Under the pieces are notes generated by a model. It was not told the origin of the DNA and did not search any database. It was given only the letters and a program-made list of their open reading frames with translations. A DNA stretch of 64,000 nt from Sipunculus nudus. Its lineage: Eukaryota; Annelida; Sipuncula; Golfingiida; Sipunculidae. Where the stretch lies: assembly GCA_026874595.1 (NCBI GenBank), contig CM049306.1, positions 21,011,019 to 21,075,018 on the forward strand, written 5' to 3'. Both the position numbers and the translations under genes were made by a program. Every line of letters begins with the position of its first letter. Within the stretch, counting starts at the first letter, position 1. Of this stretch, positions 1 through 53,939 are shown in pieces.

Positions 1-725
1 ATGTTGCTTAATTGTGATTTCAACCTACTGACCTCTTCTTGTTTTGTTGCTAGCTGACTCATATAATCTGTGACTTTGTTCCGTTCCTCACGGAGGAGAA
101 CAAGAAGATCGCTAACAGTTTTGTCCAATTTCTCGTGTTTGTGTGGTGCCGTCTCTGGTTCCTTCATGGCAGCTTGGGAATAGCTCTCTTTTGTGATGGC
201 TGGCACTGCCTCTAATTCCTGGGGGTGGACAAAATCGTATCCCTCAACATCTGAACCTGATGAATCTTCCGTTTTGTTGGCTTTTATCTTTGATCTATCA
301 AACAGCGTTACGCTCGATTCCAAACTTGTACTACCTGGACTCTTAGTGAAGAGCTGCGTATTTAAATCGTTATTCAATGCAATTAGCTGGCCTCTCTCCT
401 TCTCTAGACTCTGGTTAACTTTCTCCAGTTTCTTCAGTGCATCCATTTTTTCTGCCATTGTCTGTTTCAATATGGTGTTTTCTTCAGCTATTTTTTCGTA
501 ATCTTGTCTTAGTTTCTGTTTTACATTCTGTAACTGCCCAATGTTTTGTGACATGTCTTCAGTCAACCTGCGTACATACTCAATGTCTGTGTTTGACTGG
601 TTGGTGCTGCTTGCACAGTAAGTGGCCATTTGGTTTACAATCTGCTCATGCTCCTGCAAGGACTCTAGCTCTGCCATCTGGTGGTAGTTTTCCTCACTAA
701 CCCTGGATCCAGTTTTCCCTTCATC
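1..725 (-). CDS. Optineurin-like exon 5 (partial), coiled coils around a LIR-like linker
   Basis: The frame is open for 241 codons from acceptor ACATGCAG to the window edge. It codes for a first coiled coil (QKLRQDYEKIAEENTILKQT and following heptads), then a Ser/acidic linker with SSGSDVEGYDFV, then the start of a second coiled coil (LVLLREERNKVTDYMSQLA). The linker position, between coiled coils, matches that of the LC3-binding motif of vertebrate optineurin. The exon is cut by the window edge. Confidence 0.75.
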
Positions 726-3700
726 CTGCATGTAATATTCAAGAAAAAACACCTTTAGTTGTATAAAAAAATATAATCTGTTACTTTCTGACAACAAGTA
801 ATGTCTTTTTTTTTTTTGTTTCAAAGTGTACCACTAAAATAATTATACGATGCCCTTATTTCTGTAGTGGTAAGAAACAGATAAACAATTAAGTCATCCA
901 AAATGGGGACACACACCCTGCACAGAAGATTTTGCTCATAGACAGTGCACTGAAATGTTAGAGATATATATATCTTTCCTTTAAAAGTTTTTCCCATATC
1001 TTGGAAACAAACCCTGCCCAAAACTCTATACACAAATGTCAATATCCATCACCATGCTGTAAGTTGTGTTACTATCATCTTTCAGGAAAACAGCATATTG
1101 TGTAAGGTCATTGTCCTCTGTGACCTCACAGTTTGTGCTCCACAGACGGCCATATGGTCATGGTTTAAGTATTGATATAAGTACTATTGGTAAATGATGC
1201 TGCCAAAACGTATAAAATGCTCATCCCAAGGTTATATATGCTGAAAATCTTCTCCAATGATATTTTTTTCTAAACGTAAATGAAATTAGTTTCAAAACAA
1301 TTACCAGTACCAAAAAAATTAAGAAAAAACTTTTCCTGACCATAAATGAGATGCTGTTAAACTCATTTTTGACCAATGACATTTCATGTTACATGCCCTA
1401 AATGATTATTATTAAATGCCTGGTGTACTTTCCATTACAAATGTGTTGATACTGGCACACCTGTCAATGTCAGTGTGACTTTTGACTTTGTATCTCAACA
1501 AACAGGTGCACTGATACACCCCTTTTTCCTACAACATCACGCCATTATACTTTTTTACAATATATTTTCAAGCATTCATGGTCCTCCTAAGTTTTCAGAG
1601 AGAAGAGTTCATACTGGTTGAAGGGAAGTAACAGAACCAGTGACTAACCATGCTGCCGGCTGACTGGGTAAGTTGCTTTCTTAGCAAGTCCAGCTGACTG
1701 GTCAGCTCTCGAACTTGCTGGTCAGTGATGGTCTTGTTGTCTAGTAACAGTTTGTTAGTTCTTTGTAACTCTTGTAGCTGTATCCTCAGACCTGATACCT
1801 GTAAAACAGACAAAAATACCTCTGTATCTACAGATTAATTTCATATGAAAGTAAAAACACTTGATTTTAACTTTTACAGAAACAAGAAAAGCAAACTAAT
1901 GGAACTTACATCACCTGCTTGGGATTCTATCAATTTAACAATTGTTGCATTTGAAAAGCAATCATCCAGGCTAATTCTAGGGGCAACCATTGTTATAAAT
2001 TCAATTTCAAATGAAATTGGATAGGGATGTAATTTTTACTCAAAATTACAGAACTGTCTTCAAGTTTAAAGACTGAAAGATCATCAGCTCTTACCAAAAT
2101 GCACGATGTCATTTTATAATGAGCTGAAAATAAGTCCAATCTCCTCAAATTTGTACAAGACCTCTACCAGGAGATGAGAAGTATTATGTTTTAAACTTGG
2201 TTAATTGTTTTGAATGTCAGAAACTCTATGCAAAACATTCAGTTTTGCGTTTGGTAATTTTTTAAGAAAGATTAGGATAACATCCGTAGACTAACCAATT
2301 AAATTTAGAGGTCATCTGAATCACTGTAATGTGTTAGTAATTCAAAGGATATTCTTCCATTGTAACATACAGCAATTATATTACAATAGAACTATTATGA
2401 CTTGCATACATCTGTGCACATATCTGAGGATTATTTTGATGTATTGGCTTTAGAATTTGCATGTGGTTCATCCCTAGATAATAGGGGGCTTTATATGGAT
2501 GTAACCTGGGTTGGGGTTGGTGAACTGTGACAGCTGTGTATTTGTAAACAGCCAAGTTTGATGATGATTGTCCTGGTGGAGGTTTGTGGTCTCTGACTAC
2601 TTCTTTTTTCTTCTCTTTATACTTTACCTGCTGATAAAGGCCAAAAAAATAAAAGGTATGGTTCTCAGGCACCTCCCGTGTCAAGTTCAAACCCCCGCAT
2701 CAAAAATCTTATTTTGATTTTCAATGGAAACTTCCCTACCTCTGCTTCTACAGCCCCAGGCAGGGCTGATCTTGCTGGTCTTACAGCTTGAGCAGTCCTG
2801 AGCTGCAGCTGGAGGTCTCTCATGGACTGTGAGAGAGCAGTGTTCCTCGCTAACAGCTCTGCTTTCTCCTTCCTGAGGCTGGTCACCAGCGTTCGTGCTT
2901 GGTTGAACTTCTGGATGATCTCTTCTCTCTCCTCCTCCATTGATTTCTTCCATTCAGCAACCACCTCACACTGCTCCTTCATCAGGGAGTTGTTCTCCAA
3001 CATTGTGTCTAGAATTAAAGGGACATAATTAGGGACAATATTATGCCTGTTCCTTCCCAATATAAGTTCAGTTTTGCTTTATGAAACAAAGGTTTCCCAA
3101 TAAACCATCCCAGCACACAGTCTCAGTACCTTCCTCTCAGCTCCTTAATACTGTGTTATGTTTCTACATGTGAGTAAACACTGACCATGTGTGTCTGTTA
3201 ACCATAACAAGGCTGTGTGACTGGAGATCTGATTTACGCAAGATAGATAAATATCAAACAAGTAGTCCAAACATGAATTGAGGAATGTTCCTGTTATGAT
3301 TATGTTGGCACCAGTGATATCACCCAGTCTATTTTTTTAACACTTATACAGGACTGGGCCAGTTTCAGTACATTTTATTTCAAAGAGAAGATGCTATTTT
3401 TCATGTTGTAAACCTGAACATGTAATTTTAGCATTTACATGTTAAATGCAATACAACAAGGAATTTTGCATAAATCTGCATTTTACTGCTGAGCTTTAAA
3501 GTGTCTGATTTTTAAAAGCAAATGCAGTTTTGAACTGCAATCTCAAAATAATAATCAGAGCAATAAAAAAAAGAAGAATCATTTAATAATTGTTCAATAA
3601 GATTTTCTACAGTGACTAGTTTCAGCAGCTACACAGAACAAGTTATTCCTCATAATATACAAAAGAAAATACATGATGGGGTATTATACGAGCTGTAAAG

Positions 3701-5800
3701 GGTGTCACCAGAGGACTGTGACTTAGTTATTGTATGGCATATTCAGGTAAGGAGTAAAACCAGATGATTGTTTTGATAAATAACGGTACATTTACATGGG
3801 AGTATCATGTTCAGATATTAGCGTGAGAACTTGGTTAGAAGAGCACCAAGTCGGCATTAAAGGAAGTGGTGATTGGCCAAAAGACCATCAAGACTTGTGA
3901 TGTCAATAAGCATATTTAAGATGTGATTAAGACGAATTTCGTGAGAAGTGCCCGATCAGTGCACCAGTTCATGTAGCCTGACTATATCTGCAGTCCAGGG
4001 GCGGCAGGTCTGCATGCATCAGAGTTTAGACAGCTGAGAGATGATGTCTTTAAAGTATAAGGGTAGATTATAGGTGTCTGAGGAAGGCCACAGTTATTTA
4101 TCTGTAACAGATGTCAGAGCGAGTATCGCATTTTGGTAAATGGTAATCTGGTGAATTTACACCTGTTGTGAGCTCTTCCAGGAACAGACTGAAGACATTA
4201 TTTAAATGCATAACTGTGGAGGAATGTGGTGATTTTACACTTACTCTTAAGATCCTGATTTTCCTGCAGCAAACGATTGACAACTATGCGAGCATCCTCC
4301 GCTGTCAAGTTGCTGAACATGGATGACCCTCGACTGCTGCCCAACTCAAGCCCCTCATTGGCTGCTTGAGTTCCCAGATCCCCCATGTCACCGTATGATT
4401 GTCCAAGCCCCGTTGGAGATCGACTGGATAGGTGTCCTACCCCATTATTCATCATTTTGTTATCTCAGTGTAGCTCTGAAACATATTTAAAATTATACTA
4501 AAAAACATGTTAAATATACTATTACTGATCAGTTTCATGTAAGCTGTGAATTTTATACATCTTAGCACTACTAGGATCATTTTTATTAATGGTAGTACTA
4601 TTGGTTTCATTTACTTTAACCATTAGTTTATCACAGATATCTTTCTGACACCTTTATATATTATTTTATTTACAAAGCGGAACATGTCTTATCATTTAAT
4701 GCACGATAGTCACGCAGACCGTGATCTCTACATTATACATGCAATCACATCCTGTTTTTCTGGATTCCCCAATCCCAATATGGAATAATAACCAATGAAT
4801 TTTTTTTAAGGAACTGAAAGCCAGTGAGGCTTTCCTGCACTTTTATTTTTTTTTTAATATCTTTAATCTAAATGGATCGCGTTTTATGTATACTCAGGGC
4901 TGCAATGGAGAGCAGCAACCATGATATACTCTTGTCACTGAATGTATTTACCCTTAACAAACAGTATCTTATCTTATCTTAGCAAGCATTCAAATACAAA
5001 GGAGGGCAAATTCTTATATATCAGACTTCTGTGTCAATTTATCAAAATGAAAATGCTAGCTCAGTCTACCTTTCACAATTGTACAGATATTGTAACAAAT
5101 TGTATGGCCATATCTATCAGTACCCATAAATGGTTATGTATACCTAATGTTAATAAACCAGTTAGGATTGACCATAGAATAAATCCAACACTGTCTTGAT
5201 ATGAGCGTATATCGACAGACAATATGAAGAAAAGAAATCATTTAATGAAGAAGTAAGAGGCAGATACAAATAAGTGACAAACTCGATACAGGCAGTTGGA
5301 CATAAACACGTGTGATGCCTCAGGGAAATGCGTGAGTTATACTTAAGTCGTGCCACCAGTTATAATAATAGCAATAATTGTTGTACTGGAAACAGTATAT
5401 TAATTACTGATTAACACTTTTATAAATAATATTCTAAATTAATAAAATAATACTTGACAAATCATGGTATGATGGATCATGTTGTAATATATGAAGATTA
5501 CCCTTGTATAATCTAAATTCATGAATTTCCACAATATGGATTGACCAATATGTGAGCATATAACATAAACATGTAAAATAGGTCAGTATCCCCCCCCCCC
5601 CCCCCCAACACACATACATACACAACAGAAAGCAACTCACCTTTTAGTTATTGTTAAATTCGCCAAAAACATCAATCTTTGTTTCCAATGGTTATTATTC
5701 TTTACTCATGTATCAAAATTTAGAATTGCCAGCGTATTACTTAGTTCACCAATGAAGGAAGTTATGCGCAGAAAACGGAACAGGGAACGCAGGGATTACC
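1..5800 (-). CDS. OPTN: Optineurin/NEMO-family gene, 5' part (gene model)
   Basis: Coiled-coil adaptor of ubiquitin-dependent NF-kB signalling and selective autophagy. Coding exons on the minus strand are 4455-4245, 3008-2740, 1798-1649 and 725 to the window edge; all join in phase with GT/AG sites, giving about 451 residues. Residues about 58-122 match the family's N-terminal NEMO domain: LLQENQDLK, then a heptad-rich stretch including KEQCEVVAEWKKSMEEERE and KFNQARTLV, as in human NEMO and optineurin. Later exons are coiled coil with a Ser/acidic linker carrying a possible LC3-interacting motif (YDFV), which favours optineurin over NEMO. The ubiquitin-binding UBAN region and zinc finger would lie beyond the window, so OPTN versus IKBKG is not settled. 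Confidence 0.78.
1649..1798 (-). CDS. Optineurin-like exon 4, coiled coil
   Basis: The exon is exactly 50 codons, phase 0 to 0, with acceptor TTTTACAG and donor ATG|GTTAGT. The peptide starts VSGLRIQLQELQRTNKLLLD and continues as a leucine-heptad coiled coil, then ends in a short Ser/Gly/Ala tail. Being phase-neutral, it could be skipped without a frameshift. Confidence 0.7.
2740..3008 (-). CDS. Optineurin-like exon 3, NEMO domain
   Basis: The exon has 269 nt, phase 1 in and phase 0 out; acceptor AATTCTAG and donor GAG|GTAGGG. It codes for the core of the NEMO-domain coiled coil (MLENNSLMKEQCEVVAEWKK, then KFNQARTLVTSLRKEKAELL). In optineurin this region binds TBK1 and in NEMO it binds IKK kinases; that function is taken from the family. 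A Gln/Arg/Ala stretch ends the exon. Confidence 0.8.
4245..4475 (-). CDS. Optineurin-like exon 2, first coding exon
   Basis: The acceptor TTTCAG precedes the exon; the start is two consecutive ATG codons at 4455 and 4452. It codes for a Ser/Gly-rich N-terminus and then the start of the NEMO helix (ARIVVNRLLQENQDLK). It ends A|GTAAGT in phase 1; the split codon joins the next exon as Asn. Confidence 0.75.
5641..5800 (-). other. Probable 5'UTR exon of the optineurin-like gene
   Basis: On the minus strand a strong donor AAAAG|GTGAGT lies at 5641/5640, phase-free, 1.2 kb upstream of the first coding exon, whose acceptor lies before its ATG and so demands a non-coding exon. The upper boundary (transcription start) is not visible; 5800 is a guess. 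Confidence 0.4.
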
Positions 5801-7169: not shown

Positions 7170-7185
7170 ATGAGTTCCGTGTCCA
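7170..7185 (+). CDS. ASB gene, tentative first coding exon
   Basis: ATG AGT TCC GTG TCC A is followed directly by a perfect donor GTAAGT. Its phase (1) fits the acceptor at 12085, which needs one preceding base, giving [14 protein letters not shown]. It implies a 4.9-kb first intron. No other exon that ends in phase 1 with a start codon was seen nearby, but a different start cannot be excluded. Confidence 0.5.
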
Positions 7186-10100
7186 GTAAGTACCTGTCTA
7201 TACGAGTCAAAGATTGTGTAGAGTTTGAAATATTTCTGAAAGTTCCCGCCATTCGGGAAATATTGGACGAGTGAGCGATAATACGTGTAACCTATTTAAT
7301 ATCTCGGCAAATTACGTGTTGTGGGACACATTTCTGCTATTTTCGCTCATAAGCGCGTGAAATATTTTCTTAGAAACACAACAGCCAGGAAGTATGACAT
7401 ATAATGCTCCCCTTCCAATAAATATTGGGCTGAATGACTGTAAAATCACGTACAAACGCGGGTCCAAAATTGTAGCTGGATGACCGACTCGCGGGACAAC
7501 TTGGGACTGATCTGACTTAACTCAGTCTACACTGTGTACACAGGGCCACGCAACTGGCCACTGATGTCTGTGGTTTCAGACAGAGCTGACCAGTGGCAGT
7601 TACATAATCTGTCAGGACAATACAAGGGTTACTTTCTTTAAAAGTACATGAACCAATAGGGAATGTAGATAACTCCTCAAAAGTGGAGCTGGTTTCAGAA
7701 ATACATGGTTCATATGCAGCACTTTCTTCCCATATGATGGATATATTATGTAAACATTGCAATTAGCAAAAATACTTAACCTGGCACATGACCTTGTGGT
7801 AAATGTATAATTAAGAGTTTTTTTTTCAAAGGTTATTTTACTGCCTTTAGCGCATTATTTCCACAATTTTATTATTCTTAAAATATACATATTTCCCCTA
7901 TATTACTGAATTTTAATTTAGTTTATTGTTTGCATCAAAGATTGTAAAATAGGCCTTAGAAAAAGATCCCTCTAAAACATAAAATACACTTTTAACCATT
8001 TTATCAGGATGTGCCAGTGGAATTGAAACTTTGTAAACAGTGTCATCAAGTTGACAACAATCCCCACCCTAAAATGTCAGAACTACATATAAACAGCAAT
8101 CTTAAGAAATAAACCCTCTGTCTTCTCTAAATTTATTTTTTTTCACAAGTATACAACTGCGGTAAACATGAAGTTTAGGGTTTTTTTATCCAAGGCTTTC
8201 ATGTAGGCTTGTACTTATATTTCAGTACTCTATATATACTATTTATTCTGTTGTATTTAGGAAAGTTATATTTATAGAAAAAGGGCTATTTATGTAATAA
8301 TATATTTTATAAGAAATAGAGTATCAAATTTGGGTATAAATCAGGTCTTGGCCATTGTTTACACAGTGACATCTATGACATTATAAATAATATGATGGCC
8401 AGTGATTTAATTTTGTGGTGAATAAGACATGTTGGCACACATGCTGAAGTGCAGTTATATTCCTTCAATAATGACAATATGTTACCCTGATTACTACTTG
8501 CATATGTACACTTTGTAAGTTTATAGAGTAATTATGATGTTTACAAAATGGGTGAATGAACGTGGAAAAGGATTCGATAAACAAAAATCCTAAATTCATT
8601 CTTACCAAAACCTATGGTGAGCAAACTCCAATGGCATTGGTAGCCAGATGGAGAACTAAGAGTAAGAATTGGGAAATCAGAAAGCAGTGTCACCAGTTTC
8701 CTCATGCTGCGATGTCATGTGAGGAAATTCCTATTCATATGAAAACATGTGACAAATATGCCCCATAACGACTGAAGAAGTTCTGAATATTTAAAATGAC
8801 TAAATGGCTTAGGCAGAACCTAAAATGATTATCTGAGGCTGTTTAAGGCAAAACGTAGTCAGAGATTGCACACCTGTGGCACACTTTGATGCCACAAATT
8901 TTAAGTTTTAGAAGAATTTCATCTATTGAATCAGGGCTGATTTTTTACACATGGCCAGGTCCTTGGAGGTCTTTTTTTGTTATTAAACTCATTTAAAGGC
9001 CTTTGTGTGAAGTGAATAGTAGTTATTTTTTTGTTAAATTTAGGGCTTGAAATGGGAAAAAAAGATGAACAATTTTTGATAACACTTGATGATCACCTCA
9101 GTTTGCTACATCTCTGGGGTTGTATGTGGTGGCTAGAATTAAAGGTATATTCCAGTAGAGGGTTTTAGGCAGTGCAAATTAGGGACCATGTCATATGAAC
9201 ATGTGATCCTTTTGGTTTGACATTCTGGAGCTCATGTACAGCCTGTTTATTTGATCCTGTAATTTGATGTACTGATTGTTACATTGCGCCAGCTGTCTGA
9301 TTACACTTACATTTGTCACCCCTATGATGAGGGCATCCATAAACCCACCAAACAATATATAAATTTGATGAGTCATCTGAAGCTGTAAATGCTGACACCA
9401 GTAATGCTACTGATATAGCATGCTCCAGTATGTTTTGTAAAGTATGGGTTATGTTCACTGCACAGTGTGCAGTGATATCAGTTTCTCAAGCATTCATTCA
9501 TATATATGCAGGTTTACATCAGTGCAGGGATAGTGTTGGTGTGAAATGGAGGGGCTTTTATTCAGCAATTGTTTTTGTGATTTGGTAATTTTGAATCTTT
9601 AGAATCATGCCTAATATTTTATTAATCCTTTTAAACTATGATAACATTTTACAGTTTCAGGATTTACTGATGTGTGTGACCTATAACATGTTCAGTAAAA
9701 GCTACAACACAGAGATAAAAATATTCCATTTTAAATCAATTTAATTGAATATAATTAATATTTAATTGCATTCACCCCACCTATGATTATCTGGTGTGAA
9801 TGGTATTTGATCCTGTTAACTTCTGTGACTTCTTCCCTGTACATTTACAGAGAAATTTGGTGCAATGACCACCCTGCTGTCATGACCATCCTGAGAAAAT
9901 GACCACATGTTTTGGCCCGGCAGATCTTGATTGGGCTGATTATTGACTATAATTGATGATCAGTTAGGTTGAGGCAAATGATCTTGTTGATCGATCTTGC
10001 AGTTCATGATTGCAATTTGTGCACAAAACTAAGCTGAGGACAAGATGTATGCTTTTATGTACATGTATTTTGCAAGCAAACCTGAGAAAAGTATGTTCCC

Positions 10101-13100
10101 CAAGGAAAACTGAATATGAATTACATACAAATATTTTTTTATTTAAAAAAAGTTGAAAAACTATCAACAGTACAAAGTGAAATATTATTTATTAAAATTC
10201 TCATTTATCGTTCCATTGACCCTATTTTCATGACAATCTGGCGAACCTGGCCACTTTGGTTTCACTGTGTATGATTGGTATTCAGTCATAATGTGAGTAC
10301 TAAAATAAGATTTAAAAAAGGTTTTGTGACAGCCCTATTAATAGTACGGTTCTAAATTTTATAATCTGTTAAAATTGAAACTAATGTTGACCAGTTGGCA
10401 TGATAAAAACAGGAAGTGGTTACTTTTATTGACTTCAGATTAGAATACTCTACCCATTGATAAAACAGGATTATCAAGGAAGACCCTGTGTAATTTATAT
10501 TTGAACCTGTGGGTGATTTTGGGAATAAAATGAGTCATTTATAGAATTGAGCAGTGTGTGATGTAAAGATTATAAAAAGCACTATCGTCAGGTACTGGTT
10601 TGTCAAAACAAATCATTGATGTATTGTCTGTTGTTTTGTTATTTCATAACATATTTTACTTTAGCTGATCAGATGGTTTGTCATAATATTAAGTACTAGA
10701 CAAAAATGCATGTATTAAATGGTATTGTCATAAAGGTGCTGTTGTTTCTAATGTAATTGTGAGAGGCCAGAACTGCTTTTATTTAATGATTGTACCTCCT
10801 GTCAGAGCAAGACAAAAAATGTTGCAGTGATCTGTTCAAATTCATGCATGTGCATAGATATGTGTGATAGGATGTAGCCTCATAAAAAAGGGGTCATGAC
10901 CTTAAGGAGAGTGACCTTGACCTTGAATTTTCTCATTTTGCATGAAAATCACATAAAGGATTAAATATATCAAGGAAAGTCTGAAAGATTATTCAGATTG
11001 ACCAAAGTCTATAGATAGACTAGTGGCACCACTGATAATCCTTTTCTTGTATTTGTGTTGTTTACTACCCTCATTGCCACTTGACAATGGTGTGATAAAT
11101 ATAATTAAACAAATTAATTTGCCAATTTTCTTTCATATTGAGCACATGAATGGATATGGGTCATAGAATGCAGCCTTTATAAATTTGGGTCATAACCTTT
11201 ACTGTGAGAGATGCTTTGACCTTGAATAGTTTTGAATTTGGTGAAAATGCACCAATCATATTTTTCAAATGGATGAATGGGTCTTTCTGAAAATCAGAAT
11301 AAAAGATTTGGGATAGGAAGTCAACCTTGAAAACTGGTGATTTGCAGAAATGTAAGATTTTAATGAACCCTGTAACTTTTTAAATGATGCATATGTTTCC
11401 CTCAAACTTAATACAAGAATTGTTTCAACCAAGTTCTTGGAAATGTTTGAAAACCTGTGACCTTAACCTTGGTCTTTAGGGTCATATATGCAGAAGTAAA
11501 GGATTTTTGTGATTGCCATTGAAGTTTTGCACGTTTCCCCTCATATTTTAAAAACAAATTGTTTCATTTTATATTTTTATGCAGATATCAATGCTTTTAT
11601 AGTTTCTCCACATTCTTAGTCAGTTTTGGTTGTAAGTTCTTTAATCACCTTTATCATTATCTGTGTAACAACACAATGACGGAGTGGGATTCTCCTGTTC
11701 CGCACATTCTTCTTCTTGGTCTCCTTACCTGTGGTCCCAGATGAAAAACAAACAGTCCCATTCCCTTGCACTTGGCCATATCCTTGACTGGATGGTTGCT
11801 AGTTGATAATTGACTAAATCCTTGATAGTTGTACCTCACAAGCTTAGAAGGGACATAATGTGAAATATCATCAGTCAGAGATGTGTTTAATGGCATCTGA
11901 TTAGCTGATTGTTGTAGAATCAATGATAAAATTTATATCATAATAGGTATTGTATCATAAGATAATGTATCTTCACAGCTTTACTGACAAAAAAACATTC
12001 CTTTTGAGAATATATTTACTTTCTGTATCATGAGCACTGGGGGCATGATGATACTAATGTAATACATGTGTTTGTGTATTACAGGGAAACAGCCAGAAGA
12101 GAAGTTGCTGGCTGCTGTCTACAATGGTGACACGCAGAGTGTGGCCAGTCTGCTGAATGAGACTGATTCCCATCACCCCATATTCCTGGGTGGTCAGCTG
12201 CTGTGTGCAGCATGCAGTATTCCTCAAAGTAAGTGTACTCAAAACACAGTCTCATGAGTTGTGTGCAGCATGTATGAACCCTAAAGGTGCAACCTACACA
12301 GGATCCATAGGATCCAATAGACCAGACACACAACTGATTGCAACCCATAGAATTCCCTTTGTTAAAGATACAGACACAGCCTTATGCAGCCCATAGGATT
12401 GTTAAGAGTGTAACTAACACACAGACACAACTGTGTGCAACATAGACACACAGCTGTTTGCATCACATAGGATCCCCAAGAGGACAACATATAGACATGA
12501 CTGTCTGCAGCCCATAGGATTTTTCTGAGTGTAAGATAAGGACACACAAAGACAGCTGTGTATAGCCCATAGGATCCCTCAGAGTGGAACATACAGACAC
12601 GGCTGTGTGCAGCCCATCGGATCCCCCAGAGTGTAACACAAAGACACAGCTGTGTACAGCACATAGGATCCTCGCGATTGCAACATGGACACACAGCTGT
12701 GTGCAGCACATTATATCCCTCAGAGTGCCATATAGACACAGCTGTGTGCAGCACATTGTATCCCTCAGAGTGCCACATAGACACACAGCTGTGTGCAGCA
12801 CATTATATCCCCCAGAGTGCAACATAGACACACAGCTGTGTGCAGCATCAAGGCTCACCAAGAGTGCAACATAGAAACACAGCTGTGTGCAGCACTTGGG
12901 ATCCCTCAGAGTGCCACCTAGATGTCCAGGTGTGTCAAGCACATAGGATCCTCCAGATTGTAACATAGATGCACAGCTGTGTGCAGCACCAAGGATCCCC
13001 CAGAGTGCAACATAGGCACAGCTTTGTGCAGCACATAATATCCCCCAGAGTGCCACATAGACACACAGCTGTGTGCAGTACCAAGGACCCACCCAGAGTG

Positions 13101-16100
13101 CGACATAGACGCACAGCTGTGTGCAGCACTTGGAATTTCTCAGAGTGCCACATAGATGCACAGTTGTGTGCAGCACCAATGATCCCCCAGAGTGCAACAT
13201 AGACACAGCTGTGTGCAGCACATTATATCCCCCAGTGTGCCACATAGACACGTAACTGTGTGCAGCACATAATATCCACAGATTGCCACAGAAAGTCATA
13301 GACACACAGCTGTGTGCAGCACCAAGGATCCCCAATAGTGCTACATAGACACCAAGCTTTATGCAGCACCAACAATCCCCAAGAGTGCAACATAGATGCA
13401 CAGCTGTGTGTAGAACCTCAGATCCTCTAGATTACAACATAGACACACAGCTGTTTGCATCCCTTAGGATCCCTCAGAGTGCAACGTAGATGCACAGCCA
13501 TGTGCAGCACATAGGATCCCTCAGAGTGCAACATGCAGATACAGCTGTGTGCAGCTCATAAAAAATATGAAATATGATATAATATGATAGAATCCCCCAG
13601 TGTAATTTTCATACACAGCAATGTTTGCATGGCCAGGATCCCTCCAAGTGTAACATTAAGACCGCCATATGCAGCCCAAAGGACCCCTCAGAGTGTAGCA
13701 ACGAGCATAGATTATGTATTGACGATCTCCTTCCTCTCATAACCGCTATTATAAACAGCTCTGGAGACTGGATGTGTGCCAAAAGACTTTAAGACTGCCA
13801 GGATAAAACCACTCCTGAAGAAACCAGGACTTGATCCAGACATTCTTAAGCACTACAGGCCAGTGTCCAACCTCCCGTTGTTTTCTAAGATTCTGGAGAA
13901 GGTTGTTGATGAACGTCTGGGGCACCATCTGCAAATAAATACTCTCTACGAGTCCTCACAGTCTGCGTACAAGAAGTCTCATTCAATAGAAAGAGCCTTT
14001 CTTAAGGTACAAAATGACTTTTTCAAAACTCTTGATGCTGGTTCTGTGACTGCACTGGTAATGCTGGATCTTTCCGCCAGATTCAATTCAATAGACCATC
14101 AGACACTTCTGGATTGCTTTGAAAGTCATTTTGGTATTCAGGGAAAGGAGCTAGCATGGGTATCATCCTACTTGAATAATCGGTGCCAGACTGCGTCAAT
14201 ACATGGCAAGTTGTTTAAAAATGTTTTACTACAGTATGGAGTACCGCAGGGGTCGGTCCTAGGTCCCAAGATGTATGTGATGTACACAAAACCACTCAGT
14301 GATATTATTCGTCAACATGGATTAGGTCATCACTTCTATGCCGACGACACTCACGTGTACCTGTTTTTTAAGCCTGCAGACACCATGTCTCAAGAATACG
14401 CTATAAGTAGGATATAGCTGTGCTTAGTAGACATTCAGTTATGGAGAACAAGACGTAAGCTTAAGCTGAACAGAAAGACAGAGGTTATGATCTTTGCATC
14501 AAAACAACCAGGGTAAACTGGAGAACTTTTCTATCAAAGTGGGTGGTTCCGTTGTTGCAGCTACATCACACGTAAAGGATCTTGGAGTGATGTATGACTT
14601 GGCAATGGCCACGGAAAGACATGTTAATAACATCTGCCCTTCAGCGTTCACTGAACTTCGTAATATTAGTCGCATCAGACGGTACCAGACAAATGATGCT
14701 ACTAGATCTTTAGTTAATGGACTAGTAACATCGTGATATGCTCAGTATTCTCCAACCCAAAACTCTCTCATTCTAGTCTCTCCTGGTGTTAGAACTGCTA
14801 CTTACGGCAATAGATGTTTTAGTTGGAGTGCATCTAGTCTGTGGAAAAAACTACCATTCCATGTCAGAGACTCCAGTTTAGTTGACACTTTTAAATAGTG
14901 TTGGGACGATATGGGTTTTTGATATCATAATAATTATTCAAATTTTATCGCGTTATACTGTGATATCGCGATATTTTTAATTATGTATAATGGCATTAAT
15001 AAGCCATTAATAATGATATTTATAACAACTGCCTTTAAAGTCTTGACTTTATACAAGGGGTTAAGTATTAATATCATTTATACCTATTGGCCAGTACCAC
15101 AGAATGACTCATTAAGTGATGTAAGTTGCATGAAGGTCCTGCAGGTGTGCAAGCTTGAGGCACGGGAAGTCCTGCCCCCATCGTCGAGTCACGCTAGTCA
15201 GAACTTTCCATCAGTTTTCTATAGCTACATAAAAGCCGGAGAATCCCAGCAAATTTTCAGAGAGCGTGTCATACCAGTCATGGCTAAATATACCATCCCA
15301 ATTGTATATGGCAAAATATGCAACCCGTATGGAATGTTCGATTCAGTGGTGACACTTTTATGTTGACATTTTCGTTCCATGCAATAAAAGCATAAACATG
15401 TGTATTTATTGCTCTTTCATTATAATGTTATTTTCTCCTGGAATTCTCAAGCTTTTGTCCACTCTGATTCATCCTGCTACTTTCGGACATTTCCGACTAA
15501 TCCCGAAGTCTGTAAGCACACGGTTCCACCAACACGCGTGTATTCAAATACATGTGGTTTATAAAAATAAATGTGATTCTTTGAAATAAATTTATTTTGA
15601 ACTTCAAGGGCTTGCTTGTGAACCAAAATCCTGAACAAACATTGATATTGTGATATCGCGATAATAGGAAAGTTGACAGTGATAACCGTAGCTGTCAGAT
15701 ATCGTTATAATACCGTATACCGGTAACCGTCCCAACCCTACTTTTAAACACTCTCTTAAGACACACTTATTTTTAACATACTACAATGAGTCTTAATTCT
15801 AGTGGGTTTTCCCCTATCTTTTTTAGTATATGTTCTAGGTAGATTTCTTTTACGATTTCTTTTATGTAAAGTGCTTTTGAACATACTTAATGTATGAAAA
15901 GAGCGCTATATAAATGTGGTATATAATAATAGACAGACAGCTGCATGCTGTCCACACATACAAACATGGCTGTTTAACATTCAGACACAGGTGTGTGTAA
16001 TGAATTTCTTAAGAACTATATCTCAAGTGGTACAGGAATACATATATACCTGTTCTAGTTTTACAGCTCTAGTTTCCATAATTAGTCACAGAAAGCGAGT

Positions 16101-19100
16101 TACATATTCAGTTTGAGTGATAGTATTTGAGTTTTTGCCTTTAAATAAATACAGCTTAATTGATTGATCATTCATTCATTGTAAGATATTCAAAATATCT
16201 CTCCAGGCTGTTATTATTGAATATTAATATGAACTTTGACCTCATTACTTAGGTAATTCCAAGATAGTACAACAACTGTTGGAATTCAGCTGTGAGGATG
16301 GTGACGCAGAGGCCCAGGTCTACAAGGACCTGGCTCTCTATGTTGCAGCTTCAAGGGTAAGGGGTCATGCATATTCATGAGTCATGCATAGGTATTAATC
16401 CCCATATATGGCACCTCTGCTTTTGTGCTGGTATGTACTCTAGTGCAGCACCCTCAGACTATATCCAAACACCTTTGACCAAATCTATCAACAATCTTTT
16501 CTGCCAAACCTGCTGGTTTATGTAGTAAGCCATTTTTTATTCAGATGATAAAAAGGATTTTTTATTCAGATGATGAAAAGGATTTTTTATTATATTATGT
16601 AAATGTTAAAATGTTAAGGTATTTGTGCAGTATATATGAAGAGCTCATTCAAATTTGGTACTTCCAAAATATTGGAACCCTGATAACCAGTGATTGGTTA
16701 CTGACCTAAGAGAGAGGTTATGCAAGATCCAGTCCATCTAAGATAGACCATCAGACTCCACAAACTCCAAAATTATCACTTCATCAGGCGTCATATTATT
16801 TTCTGAAAACTGTTCAGTGAACGGTCACAAAAGGTTGGAATAAGTCTGTGGGTGCCGCAGCTGTTGTGTAGTATGATGTAGTATCAGCGTTTTTCCGCAT
16901 GCCTTGCTTAAACAGCCTTGTCTCGTGCCTTCCATAGGCAATGCTGCCATAGTACGCCTTCTCTTGGACCGAGGGTGTGATCCCAATGAGACTGATTCAA
17001 GCATGTATCGCAACACTGCTCTGCATCTTGCGGCTTCCAAGGTTAGTTGTTAAATTCTCAGTTTCTGTGGCACCATGTTTAAAGCTGGGGTTACAGTACC
17101 CTTGTTAGCAAACCAACAGGAGTGGTACGATATATCAGTATATCTATCTGATGATGAGGTCCAGTGTGATTACTGGTTGATATTATAAGAAATGATATAA
17201 TTATGAGTGGCTCTGTTAAGGATTGATATAAAAAATAAGATTTAACAGGAATATAAATTAAAATCAGTGTTAATATACAGTTTTCCTTAACTGGCACAAC
17301 ATACTAAAGTTTTTCATATGAAACAGAAAAACGGAGAGGCAATCAAGAATTTTTAAAGCAAACCCAGTGCAGTTTAACATCTGGATTTTTTTACTGCTCT
17401 GAAATGCACTAATATAGTCATGGATTACCTGAAATAGAAAGAATGTAACAAATAAATACAGCTTTAATCAAGCAAATTAATAAATTAAATAATACTTACC
17501 AGCCAAGCTTTTTGATGAAAAAGCATTGCAGTTAACGTAGTCTGTAGATTTAACTGGTCAGTTTACTTCTTCCAGAGAGTGCAGTTTCTTAATTCCGATA
17601 ATTTTGATAATCATTCATGAACCTGAGTCCATCATTGATACTGGTATATATATGTTTCTTCAAATATCCATCCATAATTTTATTGATAATATTTAACCAA
17701 TGTAGATAATAATTATTTAGTATTTCTCCTAAAAGCCAGCACATTTTGAGGGGCAAATCTGTAATTTGAGAACTTTCCTCAATTATATGTAATAACTTTT
17801 TTCAATTTAAGTAACATTTATTCAATAAAAAATGCCACTTGAAACTAGGATTAAACAGAAATTCAGGTACAGAGTTGCACCTTTTTTGGCAAGTGATAGC
17901 TTACTTGTATAATCCGGGAAAAAATCCAGATAAGAATTGGATGAAGTCATGACTAAGAAACAGAGTTTTTGTTTCTTTGGAATTGGATGGAAATTAATCA
18001 GTAATTAAATTTGTGTGTTTTTTTTTAAATGTTCAGTTCTAATTTAGTAACAGGCATGGGAATCAAGTAGCCATGTTATGATGATAATGAACCCTACTGC
18101 TGACATGGTGCCACATGACACATGCTTTCCACTTATTTATACTCTTTGGTATCTGGTTGCTGAAAACGTACATAATAAATTTCCTTTTAGTTTGTCTGAT
18201 CGGATTGGAAGAATTTTCCCCTGTGTTTGTCATGTGGAATACTAACCAGTTTTGAATGTAAAAGAATAATCTTAAAAAATTGTCCATCTGAATAGCAAAA
18301 TATCACAATTTTTGCAAAATTGCAAAAGTTTTGGTCTAGCTCTTAAACTATGATCACACCAGTCTGTGTTGCCTCAGGTTGGCACAGCAAAAGTTGAAAG
18401 GTAGCGATTGTACAGGGTTGGATGCATTTGCAACAGTAAGAAAAAGGATTAAATTTATTTGCCTGTCTTTATTTTTCTTTGGACCCTTCCTGTAAATGGT
18501 CAGTATGGGACAGAGAACAAGTCTGTGTCTTCTGTGTGCTTTCTTCCTTCTTTTATTGAGTGTCTGTTGAGTTCTGTGTTTTCTTTCTGCCACCAGCTAT
18601 AGCTGTTTTAATGTGCCTGTCATCTTCTTACTAAACATAGTAATACTGCTTGCATGGGTGGTTTTAACATTGCTGATGACTGTGCCTTACTTTAAATGTA
18701 TTAACATAGTGAAACATTAAAGCACTGCTTTCCAGTTATTGCTTATAAAGACTCAATAAGCATAGTAATTTCATAGATCAAAAATGGGTATAAAATAAAC
18801 TATTCTTTTTCCTTATTGTGGCAGTCTGAATATTTTATGTTTAATTTTTTTCTTAAAATTAAAATTGTTATGCTGTGCAAATTTTCAATAACCTGGATGC
18901 AAAGTTACATATATAGGTTATTCATTTGATAGATATGAATAAAAGTTTTATGATTGTTATAAAGACGGTGTACCAGTAATGTCAGATATTAGGCATTGTT
19001 GGTAGCATGTATTGGTAATTTAGAAATCTTTGCCAGAATCTTGTTGAAAGTAAGACCAGTTATTGACTGACATGAACCTGACTGTTACATGATGAACATA

Positions 19101-22100
19101 TCAAATGGAAGAAAATTTGAGTATTTTCATATGGTTTTCTTATATATGACCTTAAACTACCATGATGTAGATTGTTAAATCTTGAGGTGACACGAAATAT
19201 GCTTGTAGACATTTAGTCTATATTTCTATCCTGCTATGAATGTATCATCAGGATTCTAAATTTGTTTGAAAAGATCATGCCAATAGGACATAAAGATTGC
19301 AGGTATCACAGGCCCACCAGGATACTTGCAGGCCAATCATCCTCTGTATTTGTGCATTTAAGGATAGAAATCTGTCATCTGTTTTTGTACTCTGAAGAAA
19401 TTGCTGAAAACTGGAACTTTAAGGGCAATGACTGATACTTGTCAAAACAAAACGTAATTTCATTCAGTCCAAGACAACAATTTCACTATCAAGAACACTT
19501 TATTAATACAAAAAGTAATTTCATTCAGTCCAAGACAACAGTAATGAATATCTCTATCCATCACATTTTTTCAAAACTAGAGTAATTTCATTCAGTCCAA
19601 GACAACAATATCACTATCCAGAACACTTTATTAATACAAAAAGTAATTTCATTCAGTCTAAGACAATAGTAATGAATATCTCTATCCAACACATTTTATC
19701 AATACAAAAAGTAATTTAATTCAGTCCAAGACAACAATTTCACTATCCAGAACACTATAATTACAAAAAGAAATTCATTCAGTCGAAGACAACAGTAATG
19801 AATATCTCTATCCATCACATTTTTCAAAACTAGAGTAATTTCATTCAGTCCAAGACAACAATATCACTATCCATCACATTTTATCAATACAAAAAGTAAT
19901 TTAATTCAGTCCAAGACAACAATTTCACTATCCAGAAGACTATTAATACAAAAAGAAATTCATTCAGTCAATGACAACAGTAATGAATATCTCTATCCAT
20001 CACATTTTTCAAAACTTAGAGTAATTTCATTCAGTCCAAGACAACAATATCACTATTCAGAAAACTTTATCAATACAAAAAAAAATTTCGTTCAGTTTAA
20101 GACAACAGTAATGAATATCTCTATCCATCACATTTTATCAATACAAAAAGTAATTTAATTCAGTCCAAGACAACAATTTCACTATCCAGAACACTATTAA
20201 TACAAAAAGTTATTTCATTCAGTCCAAGACAACAATTTCACTAACCAGAACAATTTATTAATACAAAAAGTAATTTCATTCAGTCCAAGACAACAGTAAT
20301 GAATATCTCTATCCATTACATTTTATCAAAACAAAAAGTAATTTCATTCAGTCCAAGACAACAATATCACTAGCCAAAACATTTTCTCATACTTCGTAAC
20401 CACACAGGATAAATGTGCCATAATCTGGTGACTGCTTATGGGTCTAGCTTTCCAAATTTTTACTTTTGAATATGGAAAAAAAGTCGCATAAATAACAAGT
20501 ATTGCTATGTTAGGAGACAATATGACCCAAAACTGTCATGTTGTGTGTTTGTAAGCCTTGAGGTGCTGTACTATATCTGTTGATCCAGAATGGATTATGG
20601 TATGATTGTGTTTTAAGCAGGGGTATTATTTTACTTCAGGGCGATCCAGACATAGTCCAGGTCTTGTTAGATCGTGGTGCAGACATTCTCGGAACAAACA
20701 GATTTGGTGTGACCCCATTGCATTCAGCTTGCCGTCATGGTAACACAGGTAACTAAATGTGCATCGTGACATCCAAGCCTTCTGCTGAACCACCACTCTG
20801 ACTATTTACAGTCAATATAATCTCCACATTGGGTAATGGGTACCCTGTTCATATATACTGCTTACAGGTAAAAATAACCATTTCCTGGCAAAACAAGCAG
20901 GGAACCAACCTCAGTGTTATAAATTGCTTTTGTTGTTGGTCACTTAATCACAGTGGAACATGCTGTCAGGTCACATTTCATTACATGGACATGTTCAAAA
21001 TACAATTAAATGAAATTAGGAGTTTTTTCCAACTTCAGAAAATCCGAGGGTTTGTCCACCAAAATATTTTAAAAATTTGCTTAAAAAATTAGATTTAATA
21101 TCCACACATCTGTTGCAAAGATGAAGAAATAATGATTTCTGACTCATACCTGCAGGAGTTGTTGAAGTTTTAGTCAAGCGCGGAGCACCAGTTGACTACA
21201 AAGACAGTGGATCCAGCTCGCCACTCTACCACGCTGTCACACACGGCCATACAGACATTGTCAAAATATTGATAAAAGGTGAGGCATTTTTCAGGGAATT
21301 TGTCTGGTCTGTCAGGCATTTATAAATACTGTCATTAGCTTCATATTCGCCAGGTTAAGATGTCACTATTTTCACTTTGTAGCAAACCTGTGAGCTTATG
21401 CTGTGGAGTAGCGTCGTCCATCTGTCATACACAGTCATCTGTACCTTCATGCCACTCACCTTTCAGTTTTTGTAGAATAGATTAATGCCCATTTTTCAGG
21501 AGTGATTTGCAGTATTGGCCTGAAATTGTGCATATTTATAGAGCTTGGGCTCCTCCATCTTGTACTTAAGACTGGTGGCACCATCTGCAATCCTTTTCCT
21601 GTAGCATCCATCCGTACATGTATTTTGGGTGAAATTTCTCATATCTGAGGAGTGGGTCAAGGGATTGTTATGTAAATTTGGCATGTTCATCTATCTTGGA
21701 AAGTTTTCTGGTAAAGCAGACAGCTGGCGCCACTTACTGTTCCGTTTTTGTAGGTAAATTAATGCCCGTTTCTCAGGAGTTATTTGCAGTATTGGCCTGA
21801 AATTGTGCATATCGATAGATCTTGGACTCCTCCCTCTTGTACTCAAGACTTATGGCGCCATCTACAATCATTTTCCTGTGGCGTCTTTTTGTACATGTGC
21901 TTCGGGTAAAATTGCTAATATCTCAGGAGTGGGTCAAGGTTTTGGTCTGAAATTTGGCACGTTTATCCATCTTGGAAAGTTTTCTCATAAACCAGACAGG
22001 TGGCACCACTCCCCTTGCAGTTTTGTAGAATAAATTAATGCCCGTTTTTCAGGAATGATTTGCAGTATCAGCCTGAAATTGTGCATATCCATAGCGCTTG

Positions 22101-24576
22101 GACTCCTCCATCTTGTACTTAAGACTGGTGGCGCCATCTGCAATCATTTTCCAGTGGCATCCATCTGTTCATGTGTTTTGGGTAAAATTTCTCATATCTC
22201 AGGAGTGGGTCAAGGTATTGTTCTGAAATTTGGCATGGTCATACATTTTGGAAAGTTGTCATGTTAACCAGATAGGTTGCGCCACTTAGCTTCTGGCTTT
22301 CATAGAAAAAAATAATGCCCTTTTCTTAGGAGTGATTTGCATTATTTGCCTGAAATTGTGCATATCCATAGCTCTTTGACTTAATCTTTGTACTCAAGAC
22401 TGATGGTGCCATCTACAATTGATTTCCCATGGCGTCTATTCATACATGTGCTTTGGAGGAAAATTGCTCATATCTCAGGAGTGGGTCAAGGTATTGGTCT
22501 GAAAATTTGGCATGTTCATCCATCTTGGAAAGTTTTCTTGTAAACCAGGAAGGTGGCCCCACCTACCTTTCTGTTTATGTTGAATAAATTAATGCCCTTT
22601 TATCAGGAGTGATTTGCATTATTGGCCTCAGGTGGTGCAACTTACAATCATGATTACATGGCAGACACCCATCTCACCTTATTTCCCCCTTACCACTCAA
22701 TCCATGCCTCACTCCACATGTACTAATCTGATTTTCGCGGATACATGTAGTCGCTTTCGACAAACTGTATCAAGTTGTTTTATGCATCTCTGCACATAAC
22801 TGAAGAGTTGTTTGAGGTCTGATATGTCCATACATCTTTAATGGCTTTCTTGTTCACAATACTGGTGGTGTCACTTATATTCATTTTTGTGTTTTGTGCG
22901 CCTATGCGTGTATTTCAGCAGTGACGTTTGTGTAATTTTTGCATGGATTCCGGTTCAAAATGTTCAGTGCTTGCATTGTACATATACATGTCACACGTGC
23001 TTGAAAGGAACGGTCCAGCATGGAAGCATTATACCTGATATATATCCCATTGCACAGGTTCGCATTAGGCCTGTAAGCCTTGTTCATTGTGTCATGAGGG
23101 TTCTGATCTTGTGATCTCACCAAACAATAACCTACCCAGATTCTGAACATAATTATATGAACTTATTAATATGAAATAATGGTACAGAATCTTGTAACAA
23201 ATGGAAGGGGACTAACGTGAACATCAGATGAGTAGAAAGTATTGTTCAGTATTGGCATATAATTTGAAAGATTTGATATAATTTGTTATAGCAATCTTTC
23301 ATTAACGGGTTAAATATAAGGTCTGTTATTATTTACAATATCGATCATTTGCCTTTTAACATGTCTTTGACAATAGGCCTCTGATTCACGAAGGTTTTAT
23401 TTTCACAGTTAATTTCCCTTTTGTGAATATGTTGTATAGGAAACCCTCAAGAACAAAAAGGGAAGTTCAGTATATGTTCCCTTTAAAAAGATACATACAT
23501 GGAACAGGTTGTTTGTATTATTGAAAATTTAAGATATTTAATAAGTTGTTGATGATTGCCAACAATGTTTAATATGCAATATTTAGTCTGTAGAAAATTC
23601 TCTCTGACCCTTTAACTTATACATAATTATGTAAGATATTATTAGATTCATTTAGTAACATTTTGTGCTTGTTTTTGCCTGCATCGTTGTGATCTTATTA
23701 TTAATAACATTTGTAAACCTTGATTTCGAAAATGCTTGAAAAGCCCTTGAAATTTGCAAAGGGAAAGATGTATGAACCCTGTTCTGTGCTTGTTGACCTT
23801 TTTACCAAGTCCTTGTTCTTCTGCTATGTGCGGCCAGACCAGTTCAGCCTTGTTCTCCTGACCACCATTTTGATGGTCTTTAGGTATCTGCATTTTTACC
23901 TGCAGTCCTATTTTGTTCTTCTATCTTTCAGTGACACACTGACATTTTCCCTGTTTTCTGATTTCAGCTGGTTGTGATTTGGACATTTTATCTGCAGGCC
24001 TGTATTTGTTCTTTAATCTTTCTTTGACACACTACTTATTTCTGATTGCATGAATTATTTAAACACATCATGCTACTGATGTTTTCCTGTTTTCTGATTA
24101 CAGCCGGTTGTGATTTGGACACTGTTAACGACGAGAAGCTCAGCTGTTTGGACCAGTCTCTGGTCTATAACCACAGAGATATCACAGCCTTTCTACTTAA
24201 AGGTGGCTGTCAGATAGAGAAAGCCAAAGGACACATTTATTATTCAGGACATTACTGTAACACTGTGCTGTACTCGCTCATACAAGCCCGGGATATGGAG
24301 AATATCCGACTACTGATTGAGTGTGGGCATAAAGTCACAAAGCAAGGACTACAGCAAATGTTAAAAAATCCCAACTCCATTCAGGAGAGCCAGGACATAC
24401 TGGGACTTCTACGACACGCGTCCAATGTGCCACGCACACTTAAAAGTTTATGTCGTATCACAGTGCGACGGGTGCTCATTAACAATCGGCGGGCCAACGG
24501 GGGCAGTCTGGACAGACAAATAGAGAGGTTGGGCATACCTCTAAAACTGCGCAGCTTTATGTCTATGAGAACATAA
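7170..24576 (+). CDS. ASB: Ankyrin-repeat SOCS-box (ASB) protein (gene model)
   Basis: Predicted substrate receptor of a Cullin-5/Elongin-BC ubiquitin ligase; target unknown. Exons: 7170-7185 (tentative), 12085-12228, then either 16253-16356 or 16938-17041, then 20640-20748, 21156-21278 and 24104-24576. Using one of the two 104-nt exons gives 969 nt, or 322 residues, a normal ASB length, and every junction then stays in frame. The ankyrin repeats run from about residue 10 to 245 with [31 protein letters not shown] and [10 protein letters not shown] motifs. The C-terminus is a SOCS box: BC box LKSLCRITV, then a Cul5-box-like [11 protein letters not shown]. Only the family is recognised; the orthologue number is not. 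Confidence 0.87.
7186..12084 (+). other. ASB gene intron 1
   Basis: No exon was recognised. The stretch 10880-11480 contains several copies of GTGACCTTGACCTTGA-type text (an old interspersed repeat that also occurs at 49.1-49.4 kb). A region at 9850-10260 carries degenerate 'TGACCACC' motifs of another old repeat. The rest is AT-rich unique-looking DNA. Confidence 0.4.
12085..12228 (+). CDS. ASB gene exon 2, first ankyrin repeat
   Basis: Acceptor TATTACAG, donor A|GTAAGT, phase 1 in and phase 1 out. It codes for [32 protein letters not shown] and [11 protein letters not shown], a first, divergent ankyrin repeat plus the first half of the next. Its last 45 bases and donor are similar to the unit of the minisatellite that follows. 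Confidence 0.85.
12235..13697. repeat. 47-bp minisatellite in ASB intron 2
   Basis: About 28-30 diverged copies of a unit with period about 47 bp (range about 44-53) share CAGCTGTGTGCAGCAC, then GGATCCC, then CAGAGTGCAACATAGACACA. The unit resembles the 3' end of exon 2 plus its donor, at DNA level and in frame as protein (QLCAA..IPQS against [12 protein letters not shown]). A LINE interrupts the array on its right; degenerate copies seem to resume at 15935-16000. Long ORFs on both strands here are by-products of the repeat. Confidence 0.9.
13698..15935 (+). mobile_element. 5'-truncated CR1/L2/Jockey-like LINE, decayed
   Basis: The reverse-transcriptase domain is recognisable: [33 protein letters not shown] (motif A, with Asn where Asp is usual in AFD), [11 protein letters not shown] (motif B), [12 protein letters not shown] (motif C with YADD). 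The usual C-terminal region continues at 14494-14880 and, after the hAT insertion, at 15741-15780. The reading frame is broken by a frameshift near 13760 and stops at 14415 and 14512, so the copy is dead. The 3' end has the GCGCTATATAAAT-type tail. The exact clade is not certain. Confidence 0.85.
14896..15740. mobile_element. Non-autonomous hAT-type DNA transposon inside the LINE
   Basis: The 845-bp element is bounded by imperfect terminal inverted repeats (TAGTGTTGGGACGATA on the left; TAGGGTTGGGACGGT read inward from the right) and a perfect 8-bp target duplication, CTTTTAAA, at 14888-14895 and 15741-15748. Eight-base duplications and TAG/CAG ends are typical of hAT. Palindromic TATCGCGATA boxes occur near both ends. 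No transposase was seen; the 127-codon ORF inside shows no known domain. Removing the insert restores the LINE's coding text. Confidence 0.85.
16253..16356 (+). CDS. ASB gene exon 3a, ankyrin repeat, alternative to 3b
   Basis: The exon has 104 nt, acceptor CATTACTTAG, donor AGG|GTAAGG, phase 1 in and phase 0 out. It codes for [13 protein letters not shown], then [17 protein letters not shown]. It is a divergent ankyrin repeat (LALYVAAS replaces the usual TALHLAA). It joins in frame to exon 2 and to the 20640 exon, but not to the next 104-nt exon, where the frame hits a stop five codons in. Confidence 0.82.
16938..17041 (+). CDS. ASB gene exon 3b, ankyrin repeat, alternative to 3a
   Basis: The exon has 104 nt, acceptor CTTCCATAG, donor AAG|GTTAGT, phase 1 in and phase 0 out. 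It codes for [19 protein letters not shown], then [13 protein letters not shown]: a canonical ankyrin repeat. It aligns without gaps to exon 3a over 34 residues (shared N, IV, LL, C, Y, AL, AAS). It splices in frame from exon 2 and into the 20640 exon. Confidence 0.85.
17042..20639 (+). other. ASB gene intron after exon 3b
   Basis: No exon was recognised in 17.04-19.44 kb, which is AT-rich. The right third is occupied by the minisatellite at 19.45-20.39 kb. Confidence 0.4.
19450..20395. repeat. Minisatellite with two alternating unit types
   Basis: About 15 copies share GTAATTTCATTCAGTCCAAG. Two versions follow: a short one (CAACAATTTCACTATCCAGA) and a longer one (CAGTAATGAATATCTCTATC). Unit lengths are about 57-71 bp, and the two types partly alternate as a higher-order repeat. 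It ends 245 bp before an ASB exon. Confidence 0.9.
20640..20748 (+). CDS. ASB gene exon 4, ankyrin repeat
   Basis: Acceptor TTTACTTCAG, donor G|GTAACT, phase 0 in and phase 1 out. It codes for [20 protein letters not shown], then [16 protein letters not shown], a canonical ankyrin repeat with TPLH. Confidence 0.9.
21156..21278 (+). CDS. ASB gene exon 5, ankyrin repeat
   Basis: Acceptor ACCTGCAG, donor G|GTGAGG, phase 1 in and phase 1 out. It codes for [20 protein letters not shown], then [20 protein letters not shown]. Confidence 0.9.
21450..22660. repeat. Tandem array of a 277-bp unit in ASB intron
   Basis: About 4.3 copies. The marker ATTAATGCCC recurs near 21482, 21759, 22037, 22307 and 22587, so the period is about 272-280 bp. 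Each unit contains CAGGAGTGATTTGCA, CTTGTACTCAAGACT and CTCAGGAGTGGGTCAAG. No coding potential is kept between copies. The text resembles widely dispersed invertebrate repeats. Confidence 0.85.
22661..24103 (+). other. ASB gene last intron, right part
   Basis: No exon was recognised in 22.66-23.94 kb. The interval 23945-23985 is a near copy of the final exon's acceptor and first codons (see findings). Confidence 0.4.
24104..24576 (+). CDS. ASB gene last coding exon, ankyrin repeats and SOCS box
   Basis: Acceptor TTTTCTGATTACAG; phase 1 in; it ends at TAA. It codes for [20 protein letters not shown] and further degenerate ankyrin repeats ([24 protein letters not shown]). The SOCS box lies at about 24427-24573: [17 protein letters not shown], then a basic loop, then [14 protein letters not shown]. 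In the BC box the spacing L-x3-C-x3-V is intact, so Elongin B/C binding is expected. Confidence 0.93.
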
Positions 24577-53593: not shown

Positions 53594-53603
53594 TGTGACC
53601 TTT

Positions 53604-53939
53604 TTCCTTTGGTTGTCTTATATATAATATGGTCTGCAATAATTTGTCAAATTCAACTTAGCAGCATAGCCCATGGTCAATTTTTATATATATAGCTAAA
53701 TTAAAATAAATAACTGAAGAAACTCTAAGAAACATACGTGACGTAATTTTTGATTGCAATATTTGTAAAGAGGGAGGAGTTTGCTTTTTCCAACTTTCAT
53801 ACTTTAATTTGGCATGTATGTATCGTATTCACGGCCATAAAAACACTCACTGTTAGCTAATACTTTTACTTTTGTAGAATATGAATAGTTTTTGTCACTG
53901 TTACTCTTATTTAAACTGTATATCTACTTTGCTCAGTGT

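Follow-up and report, generated by a model that had tools for sequence, protein, structure and literature searches.

Candidate mutually exclusive exons in an ankyrin-repeat and SOCS-box gene of Sipunculus nudus

Results and Discussion

Two neighbouring internal exons of an ASB-like gene, hereafter A (16253..16356, + strand) and B (16938..17041, + strand), are best read as a pair of mutually exclusive exons derived from tandem duplication, a reading that we hold to be probable. The gene lies in a window of 64,000 nt, that is, the whole stretch of DNA that was analysed, which is part of a contig of a 1.43-Gb genome. Both exons are 104 nt long, are entered in phase 1 and left in phase 0, and have GT-AG ends. 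Joined translation revealed that A alone or B alone keeps the frame, whereas A followed by B, B followed by A, or neither of them shifts it; when A precedes B, a TAG is met as the fifth codon of B. Because an exon of 104 nt running from phase 1 to phase 0 puts a second copy of itself out of frame, double and empty transcripts would carry early stops. The first-pass annotation of this DNA had pointed out the coordinates of the two exons, their lengths and phases, their gap-free homology over 34 residues and a TAG five codons into the second one, all of which were reproduced here. Its proposal that the exons exclude each other agrees with the exact signature, the specific duplication and the apparent constraint on A, but has to be qualified, given that joint inclusion may be possible through an alternative acceptor at 16915.

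If A and B are indeed exclusive, only transcripts holding a single one of them would give a full protein, while double or empty transcripts would run into early stops and presumably be removed by nonsense-mediated decay. Both exons would be used and would give two proteins that differ by a block of 34 residues but have the greater part of the ankyrin stack and the SOCS box in common, and these proteins might have different partners.

Gene structure and encoded protein

The gene model was built from genomic sequence alone, with exon borders set by eye. The coding part of exon 1 (7170..7185, + strand; 16 nt, phase 1 out), which rests on joined translation and for which both the ATG start codon and the exon itself were picked by eye, precedes exon 2 (12085..12228, + strand; 144 nt, phase 1 in and 1 out), whose acceptor and donor score 8.7 and 9.4 on an approximate scale. 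A, the divergent copy, or B, the canonical one, is then followed by exon 4 (20640..20748, + strand; 109 nt, phase 0 in and 1 out) and exon 5 (21156..21278, + strand; 123 nt, phase 1 in and 1 out), both supported by joined translation, and by exon 6 (24104..24576, + strand; 473 nt), which holds the SOCS box and the stop codon. The six-exon readings 1-2-A-4-5-6 and 1-2-B-4-5-6 are each open over 322 codons by joined translation, which bears out the earlier claim that either exon alone keeps the frame.

The Pfam Ank_2 score of the 322-residue protein is 183.7 bits with exon B and 130.4 bits with exon A. Together with the motifs TALH in B and LALY in A, these scores agree with the original description of one copy as canonical and the other as divergent. 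The Pfam SOCS_box domain scores 32.2 or 32.1 bits in the B and A forms, respectively (cut-off 23.5), and in both forms a SOCS box comes after several ankyrin repeats, the arrangement taken to define ASB proteins. By eye, a 10-residue stretch of the protein may represent a BC box, fitting its pattern, and LGIP differs at one position from the LPxP of the Cul5 box. The gene product is a probable ubiquitin-ligase targeting protein of ASB type, which would be expected to bind Elongin B/C and CUL5 and to ubiquitinate a substrate. The gene is called ASB-like here on the basis of its domains rather than of orthology to a numbered ASB. No named ASB occurs among the 60 listed of 458 matched chains, and comparison of the C-terminal part with solved structures gave three weak matches (best E 0.0067), none of them an ASB.

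Several other features were observed in and around the gene. A neighbour gene encoding a coiled coil and a NEMO-type N-terminal domain occupies about 1-4500 on the - strand, head to head with the ASB-like gene; the domain (PF11577; 25.0 bits, cut-off 23.2; E 1.9e-5) lies in a 137-residue frame at 2665-3078. The intron between exons 2 and A contains a reverse-transcriptase remnant (13755-14417, + strand; RVT_1, 77.5 bits), and introns of the gene hold tandem arrays at 12552-13560, 19442-20389 and 21451-22628, with periods of 47, 61/129 and 277 nt, respectively. A block of 48 alignment columns, which includes the exon 6 acceptor and the first bases of that exon, has a second copy 137 nt upstream (23938-23985 versus 24075-24121, + strand; four mismatches and one gap); if the upstream acceptor were used, a stop would soon be met, as judged by eye. 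Farther along, a 1224-codon frame running from stop to stop (49972-53646, - strand) resembles, by eye, the endonuclease and reverse transcriptase of a LINE.

Tandem duplication of one exon

A and B are identical at 12 of 34 residues in an ungapped alignment with a BLOSUM62 score of 70, a value reached by none of 200000 shuffles (mean -26.6, maximum 36). Since shared ankyrin ancestry alone could conceivably explain such a likeness, each exon was also scored against all remaining 34-residue stretches of the protein; the best scores were 13 for A and 24 for B. Moreover, the aligned repeat positions 55, 90, 123, 156 and 189 give a spacing of 35 at the A/B unit and of 33 for the next three. The A-B score, which far exceeds that of any other stretch, and the unusual spacing of 35 together indicate that A and B are duplicates of one exon, that is, a tandem exon duplication. 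The likeness is also specific in the window, where 33 stretches of the + strand consist of AG, 104 nt open in the A/B phase and GT; besides B itself, only A resembles B (70; next -12). A six-frame ungapped scan found no third exon copy in the window, the next best stretch (10058-10159) scoring 30 and containing an internal stop. Similarity between the introns flanking A and B was considered but not retained, local alignments giving scores of 20 and 18, figures that come with no formal control.

Splice sites and joint inclusion

Splice scores are approximate, being computed from approximate frequencies and not with a trained model. On this scale, the acceptor of A reaches 4.4 versus 7.6 for that of B, and the donor of A 9.1 versus 7.7. 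The acceptor of A is weak, as 550 of the 3415 AGs of the window score equally well, which counts against an exclusive pair. With the main splice sites, joint inclusion and joint skipping are both predicted to be unproductive. The exception is an alternative AG (16914..16915, + strand; score 4.5) located 22 nt upstream of B, through which A and B could be read in one frame. Altogether, 30 A-B joints would restore the frame (GT or GC donors at 16280-16599, acceptors at 16700-17034). The best one combines A's own donor with AG 16915 and creates a seam of eight new residues, PCLVPSIG; the next two rely on weaker donors within A, at 16301 and 16292.

A and B might be ordinary serial ankyrin exons, joined either through 16915 or after correction of a one-base error of the reference at the end of A. 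Ankyrin genes commonly contain serial homologous exons, the 16915 joint ranks first among the in-frame joints with an acceptor about as strong as A's own, and an extra G would produce the seam SRGNAAIV, by eye as canonical as the seam SKGDPDIV between B and exon 4. We nevertheless find this explanation unlikely. The 16915 route would insert eight residues into the loop between two repeat helices, a base error would have to hit exactly the end of A, and duplication of a phase-asymmetric exon is expected to leave two copies of the same length and phases. A one-base reference error behind the frame clash, already considered in the first-pass annotation, is a real, if improbable, possibility. As for the acceptor, a frame-restoring open AG (score of at least 4.4, at most 150 nt upstream) is found by chance at 60 of the 547 acceptor-like sites of the window; at such a rate, 16915 neither favours nor rules out joint use of A and B.

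Mutually exclusive use, the preferred reading, raises the matter of how joint splicing would be prevented. The intron between A and B spans 581 nt, which leaves room for joint splicing and counts against an exclusive pair; at this length, crowding of the branch point was rejected as an exclusion device. Incompatibility with the minor spliceosome was rejected likewise, the strict donor motif RTATCCTTT having no match in the ASB-like gene and three in the window (2344, - strand; 41634 and 56670, + strand), no more than expected by chance. For intron pairing of the docking/selector type, the best duplexes, at -42.4, -44.3 and -38.0 kcal/mol, do not stand above shuffles, whose means are -40.1, -41.5 and -39.7 (12 shuffles each; 1000, 581 and 1500 nt of introns; one genome, no covariation). 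No dedicated device was seen, which counts against an exclusive pair and leaves frame and nonsense-mediated decay as the only enforcement visible here. Such enforcement is usual: 377 (60%) of 629 human clusters hold exons with lengths not divisible by three (PMC5740500), and U2AF1 provides a further instance (PMC5224494). The signature of equal length, phase and homology predicts exclusive exons well, though not with certainty. In a survey of fly X-chromosome genes, non-exclusive exons bearing this signature occurred in 6 of 1705 genes, a low rate that favours the pair, but of 65 predicted internal exons no more than 26 had previously been annotated as exclusive, which counts against it (PMC3228551).

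Selection on exon A

The weaker acceptor of A, the drop in Ank_2 score that it brings to the protein and the early stop that results when it is included beside B could also mean that the regular exon is B, with A being a rarely used one, a relic or a poison exon whose inclusion mainly leads to decay. This explanation seems doubtful to us, as A has an open frame and a strong donor (9.1), and a poison exon would need neither protein constraint nor an exact phase match. The codons of A and B also speak against it, being identical at 19, 24 and 12 of 34 first, second and third positions, respectively. In simulations of neutral decay of one copy, matched to the observed third-position divergence, at least 24 second positions were kept in only 2 of 5006 runs starting from B and in 5 of 5142 starting from A, hence second positions have been kept beyond neutral decay. 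A two-branch simulation reached at least 23 second positions in 37936 of 45349 matched runs with both copies constrained, in 1736 of 53875 (3.2%) with A neutral and in 179 of 60446 with both neutral. All simulations used a simple mutation model, and the two-branch figures depend on accepting residue changes at a rate of 0.15, which was set arbitrarily. That a neutral A fits 3.2% of the matched two-branch runs counts against an exclusive pair. Overall, silent sites have strongly diverged while second positions are mostly kept, which argues that exon A has probably been under protein constraint for most of its existence, with later disuse possible.

Relatives and known systems

A search of the same genome with the B protein gave at least 209 matches (124 of 754 candidates scored). 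Among the matches listed, those outside the ASB-like gene are weak, the best one reaching 80.5 bits and 43% identity, so that this protein search revealed no recent full-length processed copy among them. Two of these weak matches are reading frames free of introns, 343 and 329 residues long, that look by eye like ankyrin-SOCS proteins. Viral contigs gave four pattern matches, none of them a relative. Among the papers listed by searches of the open full-text literature, none showed an ASB gene with such an exon pair.

Parallels exist with other genes. Exons Ab and 3 of U2AF1 are likewise duplicated neighbours used exclusively, and transcripts that hold both exons or lack both contain stop codons and are eliminated by decay (PMC5224494). 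A and B, known from genomic sequence alone, belong to another protein family, and the copies are far more diverged (12 of 34 identical) than those of U2AF1. In Drosophila TrpA1, the exclusive exons 10a and 10b tune the response of an ankyrin-repeat protein, but what they encode is no ankyrin repeat but a segment lying between the repeats and the membrane part (PMC11471635). Splicing also varies the repeat-encoding exon modules of the leucine-rich repeats of NLRP3, altering its function; these modules are used or left out, whereas A and B would be exchanged as homologous blocks (PMC6642158). Finally, ASB9, a substrate receptor of a CUL5 ligase, combines ankyrin repeats with a subsequent SOCS box, as here, and its substrate touches the N-terminal repeats, most strongly at helix 2 of the first (PMC7280518). 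By eye, the swapped helix 2 of the present gene belongs to the second repeat-like unit, not to the first.

Functional implications

Exchange of one ankyrin repeat had been suggested at the outset. The exchanged unit does have the length of a repeat, but by eye it straddles two of them, half and half, comprising helix 2 of one repeat, the hairpin, and then helix 1 of the repeat that follows. The block sits near the N-terminal end of the ankyrin stack. The 12 residues identical in A and B fall mostly at core positions (I, V, L, L, A, L, A and A among them), while differences affect the hairpin and much of the outer faces of the helices. It is plausible that each isoform has a different partner. 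Alternatively, the A form may merely be a less stable stack, which is conceivable because TALH is replaced by LALY and the Ank_2 score falls from 183.7 to 130.4 bits. We tentatively suggest, as a possibility on the less likely side, that A or B could be selected according to tissue or stage, which would exchange the substrate-facing block of the ankyrin stack and switch the substrate of a CUL5 ligase, giving one gene two sets of targets.

If both isoforms are made, the gene would encode a receptor that exchanges one repeat-length block while the remainder stays constant. It would then serve as a natural domain-swap experiment to locate the substrate-choosing part of an ASB protein, one readily testable because the A and B proteins differ within 34 residues only.
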